A DNA stretch of 64,000 nucleotides, from the NCBI GenBank assembly GCA_958295525.1, contig OY282355.1, forward strand, positions 781,504 to 845,503. Reading direction: 5' to 3'. Positions 10,581-29,004 of the stretch are shown in pieces. A program made the translations under genes and the position numbers. A model generated the notes under the pieces. It ran no database searches. It saw only the letters and a program-made list of their open reading frames with translations, and had not been told where the DNA came from. This DNA is from an uncultured Dehalococcoidia bacterium (GTDB lineage: Bacteria; Chloroflexota; Dehalococcoidia; Lucifugimonadales; Australimonadaceae). Position 1 is the stretch's first letter; the number at the start of each line of letters is the position of its first letter.

Positions 10581-11165
10581 TCAAGGGCGTTTCTTCCGGT
10601 AGTCTCTGAGGTCTAGGCATGCATTGTAAGTTGCCTTGTCTATCGGGACCCAGGTCGTCCCCGGGATTCCTCTCTTCGAAGAACTTCCCTGCCCCACGGG
10701 GAATGCGGATTCGAATGCAAGCCGCCGTCCCTGTGATTGAGCAATTCGCTTCGCAAATTGGACAGCGGGGCCAAAATCCCAGTCCTGGCTCACAATGACG
10801 GCGACTTCGTACCGTTGCGCGTAGGTTGCCTCGACCAAATCCAGCGCAAGGCTGACGTCAACGCCCTTCTCTTGCCTGCCTACGCCTATTCGCCCTGCGT
10901 AGACATAGATGCCCTTACTCTTCATTTGCCTTATTTTGTTCGACCAGAACCCATGCCAAAACTCCTCAACCGCGTCAGGGACCCCGGTGTAGAAACGAAC
11001 CTCAGTGAGGCGACGGCCTTCCAAGCGGGAGGCCAGCGCGTTCGCCAATTTCTCAACGTCGTAGCTCGGCCACGTGTATGGGGGGAGTGCGGACCCGATC
11101 GACCGCCAAGCGGCTTTGGCTAGGTGAAAGAGGTTCTGGCCGTCTATGAATACGATGACGCGCAT
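10581..11165 (-). CDS. NYN domain (DUF88/LabA-like) protein
   Basis: A 194-residue protein of the NYN family, a PIN-like metal-dependent RNase fold. MRVIVFIDGQNLFHL supplies the first aspartate, GVDVSLALDLVEA (about 118-130) the central pair, and VIVSQDWDFGPAV (about 139-151) the last acidic cluster. These are the residues expected to hold Mg. It lies tail to tail with the CitE-like gene, three bases apart. A good promoter is present at 11249-11277. A related but frameshifted NYN gene is at 25557-26176. The RNA target is unknown. Confidence 0.85.
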   Translation of the reverse strand: MRVIVFIDGQNLFHLAKAAWRSIGSALPPYTWPSYDVEKLANALASRLEGRRLTEVRFYTGVPDAVEEFWHGFWSNKIRQMKSKGIYVYAGRIGVGRQEKGVDVSLALDLVEATYAQRYEVAVIVSQDWDFGPAVQFAKRIAQSQGRRLAFESAFPVGQGSSSKRGIPGTTWVPIDKATYNACLDLRDYRKKRP

Positions 11166-18585: not shown

Positions 18586-18954
18586 CTACAGCATGTCTGC
18601 GAGCCTCAGTATGCCTGCTTCTATCACTGCCCCTATCACTGCGCCTATCGCCACATGCCTGATCGTCGTGCCGCGGGCAGTGGAGAGTATCCGCTTGCGC
18701 TCCGCCTCACGGTCTAGGTAGGCTTCATCGGCTTGGTGTGCACTAGCGATGTCCTCATACCACTGATGCCTGTCGGTAACCCCGTACTTGTAGCGGCGTT
18801 CCCTAGCCTTCGCCGCCGCCATCGCAAGACCTTTGCCAAGCGGCATCGGCGTGCTCGCATCCAACGGCACCGCATACTCGGACTCCGCAGCCGCCTCGCG
18901 CTCCTCATCGGCGTTCCGCTCTTCAGCCTGTTCCATCGTGTCCTTCGTAGCCAT
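18586..18954 (-). CDS. small protein with C-terminal membrane segment
   Basis: A 122-residue protein I do not recognise. Residues 1-35 are acidic, the middle is charged and helical (AKARERRYKYGVTDRHQWYE) and the last 22 residues (HVAIGAVIGAVIEAGILRLA) form one hydrophobic helix. This gives a tail-anchored layout. The ATG at 18954 has AAGGAGG upstream and is better than the longer open frame from 19176. It is divergent from the methyltransferase-HNH gene, about 190 bases away, so the two may share a control region. Confidence 0.6.
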   Translation of the reverse strand: MATKDTMEQAEERNADEEREAAAESEYAVPLDASTPMPLGKGLAMAAAKARERRYKYGVTDRHQWYEDIASAHQADEAYLDREAERKRILSTARGTTIRHVAIGAVIGAVIEAGILRLADML

Positions 18955-19147
18955 CGCTGGCCTCCTTCTTGTCAGAGACGCGAATTCCGCGCCGCCTCTA
19001 GCATTACCAGCGAACCGATTCCATCGCAAGCGCCTAGTGTCCTGTTTATCCCACTTCCCTCCACCCTGTGCCACACGCCCCTTGACAACCCCGCCCCCGC
19101 TGCGCCATCGTAGTCTTGACCTACACTCCGCAGGAGCGAGGAAACCC

Positions 19148-20656
19148 GTGGCCGTCCAAAACTTCCCCGACAACATCCTCTACGAACTCGACAACCTCGA
19201 CGTCCTGCGCGGCATGAACAGCGCGACCGTAGACCTCATCGCTACTGACCCGCCATTCAACACCCAGCGCAACCGCAGTGGCGCCGCAGGCTTCTACGTC
19301 GATAACTGGAAGTGGGGCGACGCCGGCATCCTCCCCGACCAGTGGGCGTGGAACGAAGTCCATCCCGTCTGGCTCGAGCAGATCAAAGACGATAATCCCG
19401 CCCTCGCCGACGTCATACACGCCGCCCGAACCGCGCACGACGACGGCATCGCCGCCTTCCTCTGCTTCCTCTCCGTTCGCCTAATGGAGTGCAACCGCGT
19501 GCTGAAGCCCACCGGCAGCATCTACCTGCACTGCGACCACGCGGCCAACGGCTACATTCGTATGGCGATGGACGCCATATTCGGCCCGAAGAACTTCCGC
19601 AACGAAATCGTCTGGTGCTACTCCGGCGGAGGCCAGCCTAAGAAAGACTTCCCTCGGAAGCACGATACGATTTTCCGATACAGCAAAACCGCCGACTACG
19701 TATTCAACCCCGATGACGTCAGAGTTCCTTATGACTCCGACTACAAGGCCACGATGTTCACGGGCGAAGATACGCGGGCGCCCGGACGAACATATACGCG
19801 CAACCCGAAAGGGAAAGTCGTGGAGGACTGGTGGCGCAACATTCCTCGTCCGTATGGAGACAAGCGCACGAATTCGCCAGACGAGAAGCCATTAGCCCTA
19901 TACGAGCGCATCGTCCTAGCGAGCAGCAAGCCGGGCGACCTCGTGCTCGACCCGTTCGCAGGCTGCGCCACGACCATAATGGCGGCGCGGAAGCACGGAC
20001 GCCGCTGGGTCGGCGTCGATCGGCGCATTGACGCCCGCTTCCATGTCGTTTGCCGAATGGCCGGAATGAAGGCAGCGGACGCTGAGAAAATCCGCGAACG
20101 CCCCGACTTGGCGGATTGGCTCAACGATCAACTCGCCAAGTACGACGCGCACTACAGCACGGACGCGCCGCAGCGGACAGACGAGGGCGAGAACGCCGCG
20201 CCGGAGTTGGGGCCGGTCTACATGCTTTCCCGCGCCCAGCAGCAACCGTGGCAGCGGCTTAGGCACTCCGAAATGCGCGGAATCCTGCAGCGGGCGCAAG
20301 CGAATACGCCGGGAACGCGCGTCGTCTGCGCCGGTTGCGGGCGCGAACTGGAAGAGCCGTTTATGGAGTTGGATCACGTCACGCCCAAGAAGGACAACGG
20401 CGAGAACTACATCACGAATCGCATTCTCCTCTGCGGCCCGTGCAACGGAAAGAAGAAGGCCGACCGCACGCTATCCGGCCTCCATCGGGAGAACAAGCGC
20501 GACGGCTGGATGCTCGACGAGCCGAAAGCGCAATCTGCGATGGCCGCCGTCCGCCGCGCCTCCGCAAGAGTGCGCGACGCCTGGAACTCGCCCGACGTGC
20601 AGGATATGGTCGCCGCCGCCCGGGGCGAGGGTGCGCGACGCATGGAACTCGCCTGA
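19148..20656 (+). CDS. DNA methyltransferase fused to an HNH nuclease domain
   Basis: A 502-residue fusion. Residues 1-310 are a beta-class amino-methyltransferase: motif IV DPPFNT (34-39) comes before motif I DPFAGCATT (about 268-276). An HNH domain follows: CAGC (394-397), ELDHVTPKKDNGENYITNR near 406-424, and CGPC near 430-433, giving a Cys4 zinc site and the catalytic His and Asn. One chain thus holds modification and potential cleavage activity. The GTG at 19148 has AGGAGCGAGG upstream and the conserved domain starts just after it. The last residues are altered by a tandem duplication (20570-20707). Recognition sequence is unknown. Confidence 0.82.
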   Translation: MAVQNFPDNILYELDNLDVLRGMNSATVDLIATDPPFNTQRNRSGAAGFYVDNWKWGDAGILPDQWAWNEVHPVWLEQIKDDNPALADVIHAARTAHDDGIAAFLCFLSVRLMECNRVLKPTGSIYLHCDHAANGYIRMAMDAIFGPKNFRNEIVWCYSGGGQPKKDFPRKHDTIFRYSKTADYVFNPDDVRVPYDSDYKATMFTGEDTRAPGRTYTRNPKGKVVEDWWRNIPRPYGDKRTNSPDEKPLALYERIVLASSKPGDLVLDPFAGCATTIMAARKHGRRWVGVDRRIDARFHVVCRMAGMKAADAEKIRERPDLADWLNDQLAKYDAHYSTDAPQRTDEGENAAPELGPVYMLSRAQQQPWQRLRHSEMRGILQRAQANTPGTRVVCAGCGRELEEPFMELDHVTPKKDNGENYITNRILLCGPCNGKKKADRTLSGLHRENKRDGWMLDEPKAQSAMAAVRRASARVRDAWNSPDVQDMVAAARGEGARRMELA

Positions 20657-20726: not shown

Positions 20727-21775
20727 TGTAGATGTCAACTAATTCGTTGACAGATCCTGCAGGGCTTGGAGGGGCGTCCTGCCACCCAGACCCTGATGCG
20801 GCCTCTCCGTGTTGTAGTACAGCAGGTACAGCCCCAACTCCTCCTTCAACTCCTCCGCCGTCTCGAACGTCGTCCCCTCCAGCACGTCCTCGTTCAGCGT
20901 CCGCCAAAACCGCTCCACCTTCCCATTCGTCTGCGGGCGATACGGCCGCGTGTACCGATGCTTGATCCCCAACTCCACGAGCAACCGCTCCATCGGATGC
21001 CCCGCCGCGTTCGCCCGCGACGCCACCTCCGGCCCGTTGTCCGTCAGCAGCGCCTCGAACCTCACCCCGTACTCCGCGTTCAGCGCGTTGATCCCCTTGA
21101 GCGCCGCGAACATCACGCTCAGGCTCCGCAGATCGTCCACCACCTCCGCCCAGGCCAGCCGCGTGCAGGAGTCCAGCACGCACACGATGTAGCGGCGCCG
21201 CGCGCTCCCCACGATCTGGTCTTTGCCGAGGTAGTGGCAGTCGAGATGCCCCAACTCCCCGGCGCGGGTCTTGATGATCCGGCGTTTGGACTGCTGCATG
21301 GGAGGGGTCAACCGGTTGAGGCCGTGGCGTTCGCAGATGGCGTAGATGGTGGTGGGCTTCGGCGTGTTCTCGCCGAGGGTGGGCTTGAGGATAGCGAAGA
21401 TTTCGTAGCGGTTGTTGCCCTTGCGCCGGTGAGCGAGGACGAGCTGCTCGATGAAGGGGAGGGTGCGGCGTGTTCGCCAGCGCGGGCCGCGCTTGGCGGG
21501 CAGGAGCGCGCTGGGGTCGCCGCCGGAGGCGAGGTAGCGGTTGTAGTATTTGGCGAAGGTCTGGCGGTTGACGCCGTGGAAGGCGTAGAAGTCCTGGAGG
21601 AAGCGGAACTTGGGGTGCCTCTTGGCCTTGACGAGGAGGTACTCGCTGATGAGGAAGCGCCACTTTTGGGTGTAGTTGCGCTCGATGGTCCGGTCGTTGC
21701 GGTTGTCGCGCATGTTCGTCTCCAGATGGCCTGTTCGCCGGGCCAATTCTGTCAACGAATTACCTAACATCTACA
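20727..21775 (-). mobile_element. complete IS481-like insertion sequence
   Basis: A 1049-bp element. Its ends form 28-bp inverted repeats starting TGTAGATGT and sharing AATTCGTTGACAGA, with three mismatches. The flanks are ATTCC at 20722-20726 and ATTCC at 21776-21780, a 5-bp target duplication. Joining the flanks restores a perfect dRS3-like repeat. One transposase gene spans almost the whole element. Confidence 0.88.
20739..21770 (-). CDS. IS481-like DDE transposase
   Basis: A 343-residue transposase with an N-terminal helix-turn-helix region and a DDE integrase core. The acidic residues are in GELGHLDCHYLGK, LLTDNGPEV and NGKVERFWRTLNEDVLEG; YNTERPHQGLGGRTPLQAL is the usual end. The frame runs without interruption from the right inverted repeat to the left, and both the first ATG and the stop lie in the repeats. 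A start further in (MRDNRNDRT) is possible. All catalytic residues are present, so the element may still be mobile. Confidence 0.92.
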   Translation of the reverse strand: MLGNSLTELARRTGHLETNMRDNRNDRTIERNYTQKWRFLISEYLLVKAKRHPKFRFLQDFYAFHGVNRQTFAKYYNRYLASGGDPSALLPAKRGPRWRTRRTLPFIEQLVLAHRRKGNNRYEIFAILKPTLGENTPKPTTIYAICERHGLNRLTPPMQQSKRRIIKTRAGELGHLDCHYLGKDQIVGSARRRYIVCVLDSCTRLAWAEVVDDLRSLSVMFAALKGINALNAEYGVRFEALLTDNGPEVASRANAAGHPMERLLVELGIKHRYTRPYRPQTNGKVERFWRTLNEDVLEGTTFETAEELKEELGLYLLYYNTERPHQGLGGRTPLQALQDLSTN

Positions 21776-25062: not shown

Positions 25063-25098
25063 CTAGCAGCCCTTCCGCCGCTTACCCTTCCCCTTGCC
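25063..25098 (-). pseudogene. tail remnant of a fourth Nmad2-like gene
   Basis: Twelve codons on the minus strand read GKGKGKRRKGC and stop. This matches the C-terminal tails of Nmad2 copies 1 and 3 (KGKPGKGC and KGKRGKGC). Nothing of the upstream domain remains; cassette A lies there instead. Confidence 0.6.
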
Positions 25099-25115: not shown

Positions 25116-25145
25116 TTGACAAGCGCAAAACGCTTGCGCTATGAT
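25116..25145 (+). promoter_or_regulatory. promoter of cassette A
   Basis: Perfect TTGACA (25116-25121), 18-base spacer, TATGAT (25140-25145). The -35 box is inside the palindrome GCGCTTGACAAGCGC, and the spacer holds AGCGCAA...TTGCGCT, so a repressor site is possible. Confidence 0.7.
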
Positions 25146-25151
25146 TGCTTC

Positions 25152-25206
25152 ACCACCCCAGCGGTTGACGCTGCTGGCCCGACGCCCCCGCAAGGGGGCG
25201 TTTCTT
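25152..25206 (+). ncRNA. candidate small RNA, cassette A
   Basis: A promoter with a consensus -35 box is followed by about 55 bases that fold into two hairpins, the second a clear intrinsic terminator. The first hairpin forms between CCCAGCGG and CGCTGCTGG. No plus-strand gene follows. Two more copies are at 25425 and 26232. An alternative is a tiny leaderless peptide starting at the ATG in TATGAT, but the terminator would lie inside that frame. Confidence 0.5.
25183..25206 (+). terminator. intrinsic terminator of cassette A
   Basis: CGCCCCC-GCAA-GGGGGCG stem-loop (25183-25200), 7 perfect base pairs, followed by TTTCTT. Confidence 0.75.
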
Positions 25207-25388: not shown

Positions 25389-25418
25389 TTGACAAGCGCA
25401 AAACGCTTGCGCTATGAT
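25389..25418 (+). promoter_or_regulatory. promoter of cassette B
   Basis: TTGACA (25389-25394), 18-base spacer identical to cassette A, TATGAT (25413-25418), with the same palindromes. Confidence 0.7.
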
Positions 25419-25424
25419 GGTTTC

Positions 25425-25480
25425 ACCACCCCAGCGGCTGACGCTGCTGGGCCGACGCCCCCGCAAGGGGGCGTTTCTTT
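25425..25480 (+). ncRNA. candidate small RNA, cassette B
   Basis: Nearly identical to cassette A from the promoter to the terminator. The first hairpin is better formed here: CCCAGCGG pairs with CGCTGCTGGG around a six-base loop, with one G-U pair. It arose by the local ~270-bp tandem duplication. No gene follows on the plus strand, so the transcript would be free-standing. Confidence 0.5.
25456..25480 (+). terminator. intrinsic terminator of cassette B
   Basis: Same stem-loop as cassette A at 25456-25473, followed by TTTCTTT. Confidence 0.75.
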
Positions 25481-25556: not shown

Positions 25557-26176
25557 TTACCGCCAACTCTCCGGACGGCTGACCACGTGACCGTCCGCCT
25601 TGACGACAAGGTCGGGAAACAGGCTGTCGATCAGCGCCCTGCGCCATATCGGAAACGCCGCTGTGGCGACTGCGCGCAGATGCTTTGAAGCGCGACCGGG
25701 AGGGAACGCGGCGATGACTCGCTTGTCAGGAAACCTGTGGCGCGAGGCGTTCACCGGGCCGACCAGGTCGCTGTCGGCGGAGACGATGACCGCCGTATCA
25801 AAGGCGTCGTCCTGCGCGTCGCCGAGCAACGCGACCGCGATGTTCACGTCGGTCATTTTCTCTTCGTAGGTCGTCCATTGCGCCCCGCACGCGGCGCAGG
25901 AACGCCGCTTGGACAGGAAATGGCCTAATGGATGTGGAAGTCCGGCAGCGTCCCAAGCGCGTCGAGGAAGGCCTGCTGCCGTGCGGGCTTGTCCGGGTCG
26001 TCGGGGCCGGGACGCACGCGAGCGGAGAAGTAGCGGACCGCCGCGAGCGTCTGCCCAGGGAGCAGCAGATTCTCCGCAAGGCGGCGGAGGTTGAGCCAGT
26101 TGTAGCGTCGCCAACCTGCGGCCCGTAGCCCATAGTAGAGATTGAACCCGTCAATATAGGCGATCACTCGCTGCAT
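25557..26176 (-). pseudogene. NYN domain gene broken by a frameshift
   Basis: Two frames together encode one NYN-type RNase. The first (26176 to about 25928) starts MQRVIAYIDGFNLYYGLRAA with the first catalytic aspartate and ends LPDFHIH before a TAG. The second continues LGHFLSKRRSCAACGAQW, with EKMTDVNIAVALLGDAQDD and TAVIVSADSDLVGP carrying the remaining acidic residues. Joining needs a -1 shift at about 25925-25930, and no classic slippery heptamer is present. A lost base in the genome or an assembly error is the simplest cause. The sequence is otherwise intact, so the break is recent or artificial. Confidence 0.75.
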
Positions 26177-26195
26177 CCCGCGCCTCCGGCAGCGC

Positions 26196-26225
26196 TTGAC
26201 AGGATGCAAGCGGCTCGTCTATGAT
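26196..26225 (+). promoter_or_regulatory. promoter of cassette C
   Basis: TTGACA (26196-26201), 18-base spacer, TATGAT (26220-26225). The spacer differs from A and B in sequence but not in length, so the two boxes have been conserved while the palindromes have not. Confidence 0.68.
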
Positions 26226-26231
26226 CATCAT

Positions 26232-26289
26232 ACCACCCCAGCGGTTGACGCTGCTGGGCCGACGCCCCCGCAAGGGGGCGTTTCTCTCT
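26232..26289 (+). ncRNA. candidate small RNA, cassette C
   Basis: The third copy keeps both hairpins exactly but differs in the first bases of the transcript (CATCATACCACCCC). It lies between the NYN pseudogene (divergent, 20 bases from its start to the -35 box) and the end of Nmad2 copy 1 (convergent). Conservation of boxes, hairpins and terminator but not of the surrounding bases supports a functional RNA unit. Confidence 0.5.
26263..26289 (+). terminator. intrinsic terminator of cassette C
   Basis: The same 7-bp GC stem with GCAA loop at 26263-26280, followed by TTTCTCTCT. Confidence 0.7.
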
Positions 26290-26342
26290 TGAGGCAACCG
26301 CGCGCGCCATTGACGCGAGGCGCCCCTGCCCGTTCCGGCGCG

Positions 26343-26861
26343 TCAGCAGCCCTTCCCCGGCTTGCCCTTCCCCTTGCCGTCCGCCTCGAGCATCGCCGTC
26401 GGTGTTCCTAAGCAACCCTTCCTTTGCCTCTTGAACCACTTCAAGAATTCAGGAATGAGCGGGGCGTTGGCTGTGCTCTTATATCCATGCCCATCGAGAA
26501 TGAGGCCGCCCAGGGACTCAGGGAGAGTCCGCCCCTCGCCGCCCCGGTAGACGAAGTCGTCACTGATCAGCACGCGGCTGGCCTCGGCGATTTCCTCTTT
26601 CGAGTTGGTGTCGTTGTAGTCACCCCGCCTCTCCTTGAAACGCGGGTCCTGCAAGTAGCGGTCGTGCTCCAGCGCCTCGGTCACCCGCATCGCGTAGACG
26701 AGGCGGTTGCCCAGGTCCTTCTTCCCCAAGCCGACCACGTAATCGCCCTCTTGGACGTGCGGGCGCATCGGGTATTTGCAGTACGCAAGCGTGCAGAAGC
26801 CATGGAACGGGTTCGGGGCGTACCCTGTGTCGCTTGCCACGATGTAAGAGAAGAGCCTCAT
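26343..26861 (-). CDS. Nmad2-like DNA hypermodification-associated protein, copy 1
   Basis: A 172-residue protein resembling nucleotide modification-associated domain 2 (Nmad2), a family known by context from DNA base hypermodification loci. Signatures are MRLFSYIVASDTGYAPNPF, GFCTLAYCKYPMRP, EGDYVVGLG, LVYAMRVTEAL and VLISDDFVYRGG. The tail KGKGKPGKGC is Gly/Lys-rich and ends in Cys. The ATG at 26861 has GGAGG six bases upstream, inside a leader identical in all three copies. It is the most diverged copy and the last of the tandem set. Its biochemical activity is unknown in any organism to my knowledge. Confidence 0.72.
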   Translation of the reverse strand: MRLFSYIVASDTGYAPNPFHGFCTLAYCKYPMRPHVQEGDYVVGLGKKDLGNRLVYAMRVTEALEHDRYLQDPRFKERRGDYNDTNSKEEIAEASRVLISDDFVYRGGEGRTLPESLGGLILDGHGYKSTANAPLIPEFLKWFKRQRKGCLGTPTAMLEADGKGKGKPGKGC

Positions 26862-27004
26862 CGCAACCTCCAATTTTCGCTATCCGCTTGCCAGCAGCAT
26901 AGCATCGTCCGGGCGATCGCGCGCGCCATTGACGCGAGGCGCCCCTGCCCATTCCGGCGCGTCAGCAGCCCTTCCCCCGCTTGCCATTGCCTGCCGCAGC
27001 CGGC

Positions 27005-27556
27005 TTAGGCGGCAGAGTCAGTCGGCTCCCCCAAGCGGCCTTTCTCCTGCTCGGCGAACCACTCGACGAACGCTTGGACCTCTTCCTCGCTGAATTTGCG
27101 CCTATGCCCGCGGAAATTGGGCTTGTTCCCGCGCGTTTCGCGGTGGAAGACGGACACCAGGAAGCCGAGGGGTTCGGGGATTGGGCAGGTCTTGCTCCCC
27201 CAATACGTGAAGCGCTCGGCGTCGCTGATCAGCGCATACTTGCCGCCAGTGTCCAAGTCGATGTCGTTGTCGCCCATCGCTTCCTTCCCGCCCGCGCTCT
27301 TGTCGGGGCGCTTGGCGAGAAAACGCGAGTCGTTCCAGTACTCGTCGAACGTCATCTTGTCCGTGACTTGCATGGCGTAGATGATGCGCCAGTCCCCACC
27401 CTTGCGCAGGCTCTCGCCTGCAAGCCCCACGACGTAATCTCCAACCTGAGCCACGCTGCGTGTCACGGGCATGCAACGCGCGAGCGTGCAAACGCCATGG
27501 AACGGGTTCGGAGCGAACCCGTCGTCATCGGTCATGACATAGGCAAAGAGCGTCAT
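27005..27556 (-). CDS. Nmad2-like protein, copy 2, shortened tail
   Basis: A 183-residue Nmad2-like protein close to copy 3. It shares APNPFHGVCTLARCMP, AQVGDYVVGLAGESLRKGG, IIYAMQVTDKMTFDEYW and the RKFSEEEVQAFVEWF segment. It ends PTDSAA where copy 3 continues into a Lys/Gly tail. The DNA after the stop still resembles the tail-coding sequence, in a shifted frame, so a one-base loss removed the tail. An insertion relative to copy 3 is visible near residues 135-150 (SVFHRETRGNKPNFRGH). Leader and ribosome site are the same as in the other copies. Confidence 0.7.
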   Translation of the reverse strand: MTLFAYVMTDDDGFAPNPFHGVCTLARCMPVTRSVAQVGDYVVGLAGESLRKGGDWRIIYAMQVTDKMTFDEYWNDSRFLAKRPDKSAGGKEAMGDNDIDLDTGGKYALISDAERFTYWGSKTCPIPEPLGFLVSVFHRETRGNKPNFRGHRRKFSEEEVQAFVEWFAEQEKGRLGEPTDSAA

Positions 27557-27654
27557 CGCAACCTCCAATTTTCGTTATGCGGCCGCCAGCAGTGTAGCAT
27601 CGTCCGGGCCGGAGCGCTCCGCTTGACGCGAGGCGCCGGCGCTTGGGCGCGTGC

Positions 27655-28224
27655 CTAGCAGCCCTTCCCTCGCTTGCCCTTCCCTTTCGCACCCGGCTTA
27701 GGCAGCGGGGCTGTCGGCTCCCCCAAGCAGCCTCGGGGTTGGCTGTTGAACCACTCGACGAACGCTTTGACCTCTTCCTCGCTGAAGTTGCGCCTGTGCC
27801 CGATTGCCCACGGGATGAAGGGCGTGACCAGAAACCCGAGGCTATCGGGCACAGGCATCTTTTCACTTCCCCAGTACGTGAAGCGCTTGGCGTCGCTGAT
27901 CAGCGTATACTTGCCGCCGGTGTCCCCCTGGTAGTTGTCACCCATCGCTTTCTCCCCGCCCGCGCTCCTATCGGGGCGCTTGGCGCGGAAACGCGAGTCG
28001 CTCCAGTATTCGTCGAACGTCATCTTGTCCGTGACTTGCATGGCGTAGATGATGCGCCAGTCCCCTCCCTTGCGCAGTTGCTTGCCTGCGAGCCCCACGA
28101 CGTAGTCCCCGACTTGAGCCGCGCTCCGCGTCATAGGCATGCAACGCGCGAGCGTGCAGAAGCCATGGAAGGGGTTCGGGGCGTGCCCTGTGTCATGGGT
28201 CAGGACATAGGCAAAGAGCGTCAT
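27655..28224 (-). CDS. Nmad2-like protein, copy 3
   Basis: A 189-residue Nmad2-like protein, nearest to the Nmad3-like gene. It begins MTLFAYVLTHDTGHAPNPFH and carries RIIYAMQVTDKMTFDEYW, KYTLISDAKRFTYWGS and a full tail GAKGKGKRGKGC. It begins 18 bases after the Nmad3-like stop, so the cluster is probably one operon read leftward. The near identity with copy 2 in the central region indicates recent duplication. The conserved cysteine pair in the CTLARC segment could bind metal; this is inference. Confidence 0.72.
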   Translation of the reverse strand: MTLFAYVLTHDTGHAPNPFHGFCTLARCMPMTRSAAQVGDYVVGLAGKQLRKGGDWRIIYAMQVTDKMTFDEYWSDSRFRAKRPDRSAGGEKAMGDNYQGDTGGKYTLISDAKRFTYWGSEKMPVPDSLGFLVTPFIPWAIGHRRNFSEEEVKAFVEWFNSQPRGCLGEPTAPLPKPGAKGKGKRGKGC

Positions 28225-28242
28225 CGCAACCTCCAATTTTCA

Positions 28243-29004
28243 CTATGCGCTCGCCAATAGCATAGCATCGTCCGGGCCGGAGCGCTCCGCTATCCATTCC
28301 CGCAAGGCCGTTGCGCGACGCTCCTGCTCGGCGATGCCCGTGTCCAGCATTCGGCGGCAAGAGCGCGTGTAGGAGCCGATGACCTGCAGGTCGGACTTGC
28401 CGCCGCCCCATCGCCACGGAGCGCCGTCGGCTGCCCGGAACGCCGCATCGCAAATTTCCCGGTTCACCGGAACCGCGCGACGAAACCTGCGCGAGCGGCT
28501 CGATCCGGCGACGCCCAGGAATCGCGCATCGCCTCTGACGGCGTGGGCGTTCTTGGCGAATCTGTCGCGCCCGCCCGATTGCGGCGTTACGAATTCGGCG
28601 TAGTCCACCGAGAGCCCGCCAATCAGATGGAACCCGAATTCCCCTGTTCGCTCGCCGCCCGCCCAGCGCTCCAACCGCGCAAGGAACAGCAAGGCGTCCC
28701 CTGCTTGCAGTCCTCTGAGCGCGGAAGAGCGCCCGTTGTCGCCGTTGTCGCCGTAAGTGAGCGTCTCGAATTCGGGGTCGTTGTGGCAGGCCGCGCCCCG
28801 GAGGCGCTGCGGAACGTAGCGGAGCAAGTCGCGGCTTGGGTCGTTATGCGAGCGCAAGTCGGAGTAGCGGACGGCGCCCGGCGGCGCGATGGCGGGTTGG
28901 CCGCCCTCAGGGATGGGGATGAACTCGAACGAGCCGTCATCGAAAAGCGGACTGGTGAAGCCGTGGCTCGAGTTCGAGCCGACATTGGCCAGATAGACGC
29001 GCAT
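28243..29004 (-). CDS. Nmad3-like DNA hypermodification-associated protein
   Basis: A 253-residue protein matching nucleotide modification-associated domain 3 (Nmad3) in its opening: MRVYLANVGSNSSHGFTSPL, FDDGSFEFIPIPE, and VRYSDLRSHND. ACHNDPEFETLTYGDN and GLQAGDALLFLARLERW follow, and the end GPDDAMLLASA is repeated as a remnant after each Nmad2 copy. Nmad3 is known by gene context with modified-base systems. It is the first gene of the leftward cluster. No TET/JBP, thymidylate synthase-like or glycosyltransferase gene is near, so how a base would be modified here is open. Confidence 0.72.
   Translation of the reverse strand: MRVYLANVGSNSSHGFTSPLFDDGSFEFIPIPEGGQPAIAPPGAVRYSDLRSHNDPSRDLLRYVPQRLRGAACHNDPEFETLTYGDNGDNGRSSALRGLQAGDALLFLARLERWAGGERTGEFGFHLIGGLSVDYAEFVTPQSGGRDRFAKNAHAVRGDARFLGVAGSSRSRRFRRAVPVNREICDAAFRAADGAPWRWGGGKSDLQVIGSYTRSCRRMLDTGIAEQERRATALREWIAERSGPDDAMLLASA

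Follow-up and report, generated by a model that had tools for sequence, protein, structure and literature searches.

A run of one Nmad3 and three tandem Nmad2 genes in a Dehalococcoidia genome may form a modified-base surveillance module

We analysed a 64,000-nucleotide (nt) stretch of contig OY282355.1 from the genome of an uncultured Dehalococcoidia bacterium (assembly GCA_958295525.1), hereafter the window, which contains a run of four minus-strand genes: one Nmad3 gene followed by three Nmad2 genes. We read this locus as a horizontally spread, fast-evolving Nmad3-Nmad2 module in which Nmad2, most likely a PUA/EVE-like reader of modified bases, has been tandemly amplified. We place the probability of this reading at about 0.48, slightly below even. 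Because the predicted fold of Nmad2 is like that of modified-base readers and most of its relatives stand beside immune genes, the module would be a detector used against foreign DNA. An earlier note on this DNA had proposed a base-hypermodification locus. We depart from that proposal since no hypermodification enzyme was recognised nearby, the context of the relatives is one of defence and the fold is reader-like. The families themselves are known; what is new is Nmad3 as a partner class and an amplified, loop-free Nmad2. Iyer and colleagues (2013) reportedly named the Nmad families, and later work by Burroughs and Aravind is said to have discussed TIR systems with nucleotide-modifying genes.

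One Nmad3 and three Nmad2 genes lie in tandem

The cluster consists of the following genes:

28243..29004, minus strand: Nmad3 gene, first of the run, 253 amino acids, short type (PF18754 match)
27655..28224, minus strand: Nmad2 copy 1, 18 nt after Nmad3 (PF18753; ATG after GGAGG)
27005..27556, minus strand: Nmad2 copy 2 (PF18753; the C-terminal tail of copies 1 and 3 is missing)
26343..26861, minus strand: Nmad2 copy 3, divergent (PF18753; residue table; tree)

All four products passed the curated Pfam cut-offs (26.1 bits for Nmad2, PF18753; 27 bits for Nmad3, PF18754) when searched with hmmscan, which bears out the gene assignments and positions given in the earlier note. The Nmad3 protein matched with 74.4 bits (E-value 1.4e-20) over profile positions 2-172 of 247. 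The match stops short of the whole profile, and this short form is shared with other Chloroflexota Nmad3 proteins. The Nmad2 copies scored 135-154 bits, with E-values of 4.8e-45 for the frame at 27655-28236, 9.7e-44 for that at 27005-27568 and 3e-39 for that at 26343-26873. None of 14 control genomes matched either family. The matches are far beyond chance.

Sequence inspection placed the Nmad2 starts at three ATG codons (28224, 27556 and 26861), all of them preceded by a GGAGG ribosome site; these, and not the upstream TTGs, are likely the true starts. Beyond the three window copies, a whole-genome search found no further Nmad2 in the 2.5-megabase single-contig genome. Two solo full-length Nmad3 genes lie elsewhere in it, at 1374884 (locus L013) and 2356899 (locus L014). 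The tandem arrangement is as unusual as the earlier note had supposed: three Nmad2 genes behind one Nmad3 were seen at no other locus examined.

The window Nmad2 proteins retain the signature residues D, PNPF, C, R, GD, Y and G. In an alignment of 77 sequences, they have 3-6 residues at a position where all 74 outside rows have 24-33. Compared with the full Nmad2 domain, a loop region of about 30 residues (GDNIY...Q.DS.HS) is thus missing from all three copies. The near-invariant Lys29 is Met in copies 1 and 2, and Lys in copy 3. The Nmad2 of a congener (locus L124) likewise lacks the loop and carries the Met. The window therefore shares the signatures of the Nmad2 and Nmad3 Pfam families and differs from them by its loop-free Nmad2, its short Nmad3 and its three Nmad2 copies.

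Nmad2 relatives are paired with a TIR protein or with Nmad3

A scan of 84,980 species genomes returned 427 that encode relatives, of which we used the best 80, in addition to 8 viral and 10 plasmid loci. The relatives were picked with the pattern DxGxAPNPF and the loci were the best-scoring ones; the residues of the pattern are therefore invariant as a result of the selection. Of 103 Nmad2 domains, 77 stood directly behind a small TIR gene, nine adjoined Nmad3, three were those of the window and 14 had neither partner. Companion genes of the Nmad2 loci included MazG (in 58), UDG (in 35) and a 5-hmdU-kinase-like gene (in 33). In Pfam terms the neighbours are ThsB_TIR (Thoeris), MazG_C, UDG and HMUDK_hel, which point to defence. 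In Afipia (L100, 8001-10325, plus strand), Nmad2 and MazG share one open frame of 774 amino acids, an apparent natural fusion that supports a functional link between the two.

Most relatives of the window Nmad2 are thus found directly behind a ThsB_TIR gene, as a link to Thoeris. Unlike Thoeris, the window cluster has no TIR gene, no SIR2-SLOG or macro effector was seen in it, and its partner gene is Nmad3. Nmad3 is adjacent to or overlaps Nmad2 in nine loci from at least five phyla, and within the flanks examined none of these nine had a TIR gene. The Nmad3-Nmad2 pair recurs in Myxococcota, Actinomycetota, Planctomycetota, Cloacimonadota, Thermodesulfobacteriota and Chloroflexota, as well as on a Burkholderia plasmid and two viral contigs. 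Additional pairs were found at loci L124, L140, L159, L168 and L169. No conserved flanks surround the Nmad3-linked pairs beyond the pair itself, and PADLOC, run on ten of their neighbours, gave only scattered matches.

Most Nmad3 genes of the phylum stand without an adjacent Nmad2, and no neighbour of the solo genes recurs widely. Annotated phage records contained no relatives of Nmad2 or Nmad3. Viral contigs gave no matches when searched with single Nmad3 proteins or the short-type alignment, and eleven matches when searched with the long-type alignment. On two viral contigs (L162, 3320-5585; L163, 2870-5136; plus strand), Nmad3 lies directly behind a ParB-N6/N4 DNA methylase, assigned by Pfam in L162 and by similarity in L163.

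We determined how the two kinds of Nmad2 were related with a careful tree of 47 rows, including 32 TIR-linked Nmad2s. All 32 fell on one side of a branch (89/79; 90% of bootstraps; 1 change). Copies 1 and 2 formed one clade with the Nmad2 of the congener (100/98), next to an Nmad3-linked row. Copy 3 branched immediately outside the TIR clade, a placement that had no starred support. Considering that the TIR-linked Nmad2s form one clade, a change of partner between TIR and Nmad3, in either direction, was rare.

The same genome encodes two ThsB-TIR proteins (genes at 1089364 and 88154) that are unlinked to the cluster. As TIR is the usual partner of Nmad2, the amplified copies could in principle act in trans with one of them, as a scattered Thoeris-like system. 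We consider this very unlikely, since neither ThsB_TIR gene has an Nmad2 or MazG neighbour, copies 1 and 2 lie outside the TIR-linked clade, and the Nmad3 and TIR partners were never found together in the relatives examined.

The module is sporadic and evolves fast

Nmad2 exceeded the cut-off in only three of 197 genomes of the class and three of 16 of the family. One congener (G199) carries the pair at the same dapL site, in the gene order dapF-Nmad3-Nmad2-dapL and with a single Nmad2 (this is locus L124). In three further congeners dapF and dapL are present and nothing was recognised between the two; the module is therefore absent at the site in three of the four other congeners tested. The window cluster adjoins dapL, and dapF is not beside it. 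Between the window and the congener, Nmad3 is 54% and Nmad2 34-45% identical, whereas DapL is 90% identical. Judged by these identities, the Nmad3-Nmad2 module evolves far faster than its neighbour genes. A TIR-Nmad2 pair is present in a genome of the same family and another genus, so both the TIR-linked and the Nmad3-linked forms circulate in the family.

The predicted fold of Nmad2 resembles modified-base readers

No solved structures related to Nmad2 by sequence were present in the PDB. An AlphaFold2 model of window Nmad2 copy 1, built from the alignment of 77 sequences, had a predicted local distance difference test score (pLDDT) of 88.1 and a predicted template modelling score (pTM) of 0.86. 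Its top PDB match in Foldseek was the human EVE protein THYN1 with 5-methylcytosine (5mC) DNA (E-value 8e-4, probability 0.99). Other top matches were PH1033, MJECL36 and ZmASCH, and the top EVE/ASCH/THYN1-type matches ranged from E-value 8e-4 to 0.08. VcaM4I, YTH and the McrB N-domain with 5mC DNA matched more weakly. The named matches in an independent library of viral models included ASCH, EVE and DUF3850. Members of the PUA superfamily (THYN1, PH1033, VcaM4I, ZmASCH and the McrB N-domain type) were thus the best structural matches in both libraries. The earlier note had named structure prediction as a check of its hypermodification proposal, and the model came out nearest to PUA-superfamily readers: the predicted fold resembles modified-base readers and not known base-modifying enzymes. 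A review describes EVE-like domains as binding methylated bases and taking part in defence (PMC7641849).

The Nmad3 model was made for a relative, L070, which has a closer alignment, so the model applies to the window protein by homology only. This model had a pLDDT of 91.8, and its best match was a weak one to the EVE protein PH1033 (E-value 0.26, probability 0.30). A profile comparison of Nmad2 and Nmad3 with hhalign paired their GD-strand regions with a P-value of 0.002 but a probability of 14%, which is a hint only of likeness between these regions.

A model for modified-base surveillance

In the reading that we prefer, Nmad2 would hold a modified base or nucleotide in its pocket and would not synthesise one. 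Nmad2 would bind modified DNA or nucleotides that come from a phage or another mobile element and would then engage Nmad3, which would execute or relay the response. Nmad3 would be a dedicated partner in place of the ThsB-type TIR of most Nmad2 operons, and the additional copies of Nmad2, having diverged, would broaden the set of recognised bases. The analysis itself establishes the families, the gene order, the amplification, the fold prediction for Nmad2, the choice of partners among relatives and the rapid evolution; in this model we infer the ligand, the binding of Nmad2 to Nmad3, the activity of Nmad3 and the role in defence. The name "nucleotide-modification associated" may still be apt if it is taken to mean that a modification is read.

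Knowledge of Nmad2 and Nmad3 comes from association alone. The reader-like fold of Nmad2 and its alternative pairing with ThsB-TIR or Nmad3 lead to a testable claim, namely that these proteins sense the modified bases of phages. Insight into how Thoeris-type TIR systems detect an infection is just starting to emerge, and capsid sensing has been reported in one such system (PMC12578639). If Nmad2 is the sensor of Thoeris-type TIR systems, this would be a second kind of trigger, and Nmad3 would be a candidate effector. DefensePredictor lists aGPT-PPlase, MazG, MazG-C and NMAD as predicted nucleotide-modification defence genes (PMC13092281). That cast of genes is the one around TIR-linked Nmad2; the window lacks those companions, and the Nmad family is left unspecified in that listing. 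A paper on Nmad5 (PMC11846954) was rejected as evidence because it concerns a different family.

Several observations weigh against the surveillance reading. The TM-scores of the Nmad2 model matches are only 0.4-0.5, so that the resemblance to PUA holds at the superfamily level. No sequence profile ties Nmad2 to EVE or ASCH (a Pfam scan returns Nmad2 only). The Nmad3 model has no significant structural match. It is the TIR-linked clade that the defence genes surround; the flanks of the Nmad3-linked clade are unremarkable. Because the loop is lost and Lys29 has changed to Met in copies 1 and 2, the window lineage may read a different ligand or be losing function. Finally, the literature searched contained no experiment on the function of Nmad2 or Nmad3.

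The hypermodification proposal would instead make Nmad2 and Nmad3 accessory enzymes or binding factors in the making of a hypermodified base of the host DNA. The Pfam family names are in line with it, as are the two viral contigs with Nmad3 behind a methylase and a DNA methylase-HNH gene at 18833-20656 of the window. However, this methylase is 6 kilobases (kb) off, behind a transposase and other genes, and no base-modifying enzyme was recognised beside the Nmad genes, where the scanned neighbours belong to ordinary metabolism or are HflX or a transposase. The genome has no Tet_JBP or HMUDK_hel match, although no control genome had one either. Absence of the module at the site in most of the other congeners tested is also unlike core DNA modification. 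Considering that no enzyme of this kind was recognised nearby and that congeners lack the module at the site, we regard synthesis of a hypermodified base as quite unlikely.

Nmad2 was amplified through duplications that broke inside Nmad3

Repeated blocks accompany the Nmad2 copies:

28140..28277, minus strand: reference block spanning the final ~35 nt of Nmad3, the ribosome site and the opening codons of copy 1 (repeat family D2, alignment)
27472..27609, minus strand: duplicate of this block before copy 2, with a relic of the Nmad3 end (D2, alignment)
26777..26914, minus strand: duplicate of this block before copy 3, with a relic of the Nmad3 end (D2, alignment)
26922..26981, minus strand: block behind copy 2, 97% identical to the block behind copy 3 (sliding identity)
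26303..26362, minus strand: block behind copy 3, 97% identical to the block behind copy 2 (sliding identity)
25065..25098, minus strand: 34-nt relic of the 3' end of another Nmad2, with 91% identity to the corresponding stretch of copy 3 (repeat family D6, alignment)

The D2 block of 138 nt recurs in register at 28140, 27472 and 26777. Since the end of Nmad3 persists as a relic before copies 2 and 3, the pair of Nmad3 and copy 1 is likely the ancestral arrangement, and the breakpoints of the duplications lay within the end of Nmad3. At the protein level, copy 1 shares 77% identity with copy 2 and 48% with copy 3. Between copies 1 and 2, the nonsynonymous divergence (dN) is 0.19 and the synonymous divergence (dS) 0.39. 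The resulting dN/dS of about 0.48 indicates that these two copies are under moderate purifying selection.

Copies 2 and 3 share 50-73% identity over their coding cores, whereas the 60-nt blocks behind them are 97% identical. This suggests homogenisation or exchange at the edges of the Nmad2 units. With conserved flanking blocks and coding cores diverged to 50-70%, the three Nmad2 genes could be a reader array that diversifies by cassette exchange, in which one Nmad3 is served by several base readers of differing specificity; we regard this extension as speculative and rather improbable. An odd GKGKxGKGC tail ends copies 1 and 3 (27657-27706 and 26345-26394), and in copy 2 the corresponding DNA comes after the stop codon.

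Alternatively, the locus could be the decaying remnant of a defence island that was imported, then lost a TIR or another effector, and is now being broken up by its repeats. A frameshift in the adjoining NYN gene, the 34-nt Nmad2 relic, the loss of the loop in all copies and of the tail in copy 2, and the transposase at 20739-21770 would fit such decay. Conversely, all four Nmad frames are open, copies 1 and 2 show codon-position bias along with the dN/dS given above, and the congener keeps the pair intact in the same loop-free form. We therefore consider decay unlikely.

NYN gene, hairpin cassettes and flanking genes

The cluster is adjoined by the following features:

25557..26209, minus strand: NYN-domain gene (PADLOC HEC-09; NYN E-value 1.1e-6), two frames split near 25928
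25116..25206, plus strand: cassette A, in which a TTGACA-18-TATGAT promoter precedes a ~58-nt RNA of two hairpins with a terminator at its end
25389..25479, plus strand: cassette B, of the same structure
26196..26286, plus strand: cassette C, built likewise, which overlaps the NYN gene at its 5' end

The location of cassettes A-C and the NYN gene next to the cluster is as the earlier note had described it, except that the NYN gene is split by a frameshift. HEC-09 positions 1-79 are in one frame and 80-203 in the other, so this gene is probably broken. A second NYN gene, which is intact, lies at 10581-11165 (minus strand). The three cassettes are near-identical, with perfect hairpins of which the second is the terminator. 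The genome has no further copy, and none is present in 117 other genomes of the order, including the congener.

These near-identical promoter-hairpin-terminator units, found only here in the genome and with the NYN gene between B and C, could together with that gene form a functional toxin-antitoxin-like unit, to which the Nmad genes would be bystanders. This is highly improbable, as the NYN gene is probably broken, Nmad3-Nmad2 occurs in the congener with no NYN gene, and neither the congener nor the 116 other genomes of the order searched contain the RNA units.

Genes scanned around the cluster are ordinary ones and encode HflX, an aminotransferase, an SDR dehydrogenase, a dienelactone hydrolase, Rieske oxygenases, a luciferase-like monooxygenase and a transposase. 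The DNA methylase gene of the window is a fusion with an HNH nuclease (18833-20656, plus strand) and lies beside an integrase-core transposase gene (20739-21770, minus strand), 5-8 kb from the cluster. Many short interspersed repeats are common to distant intergenic regions of the genome (the window, L013, L017 and L018).

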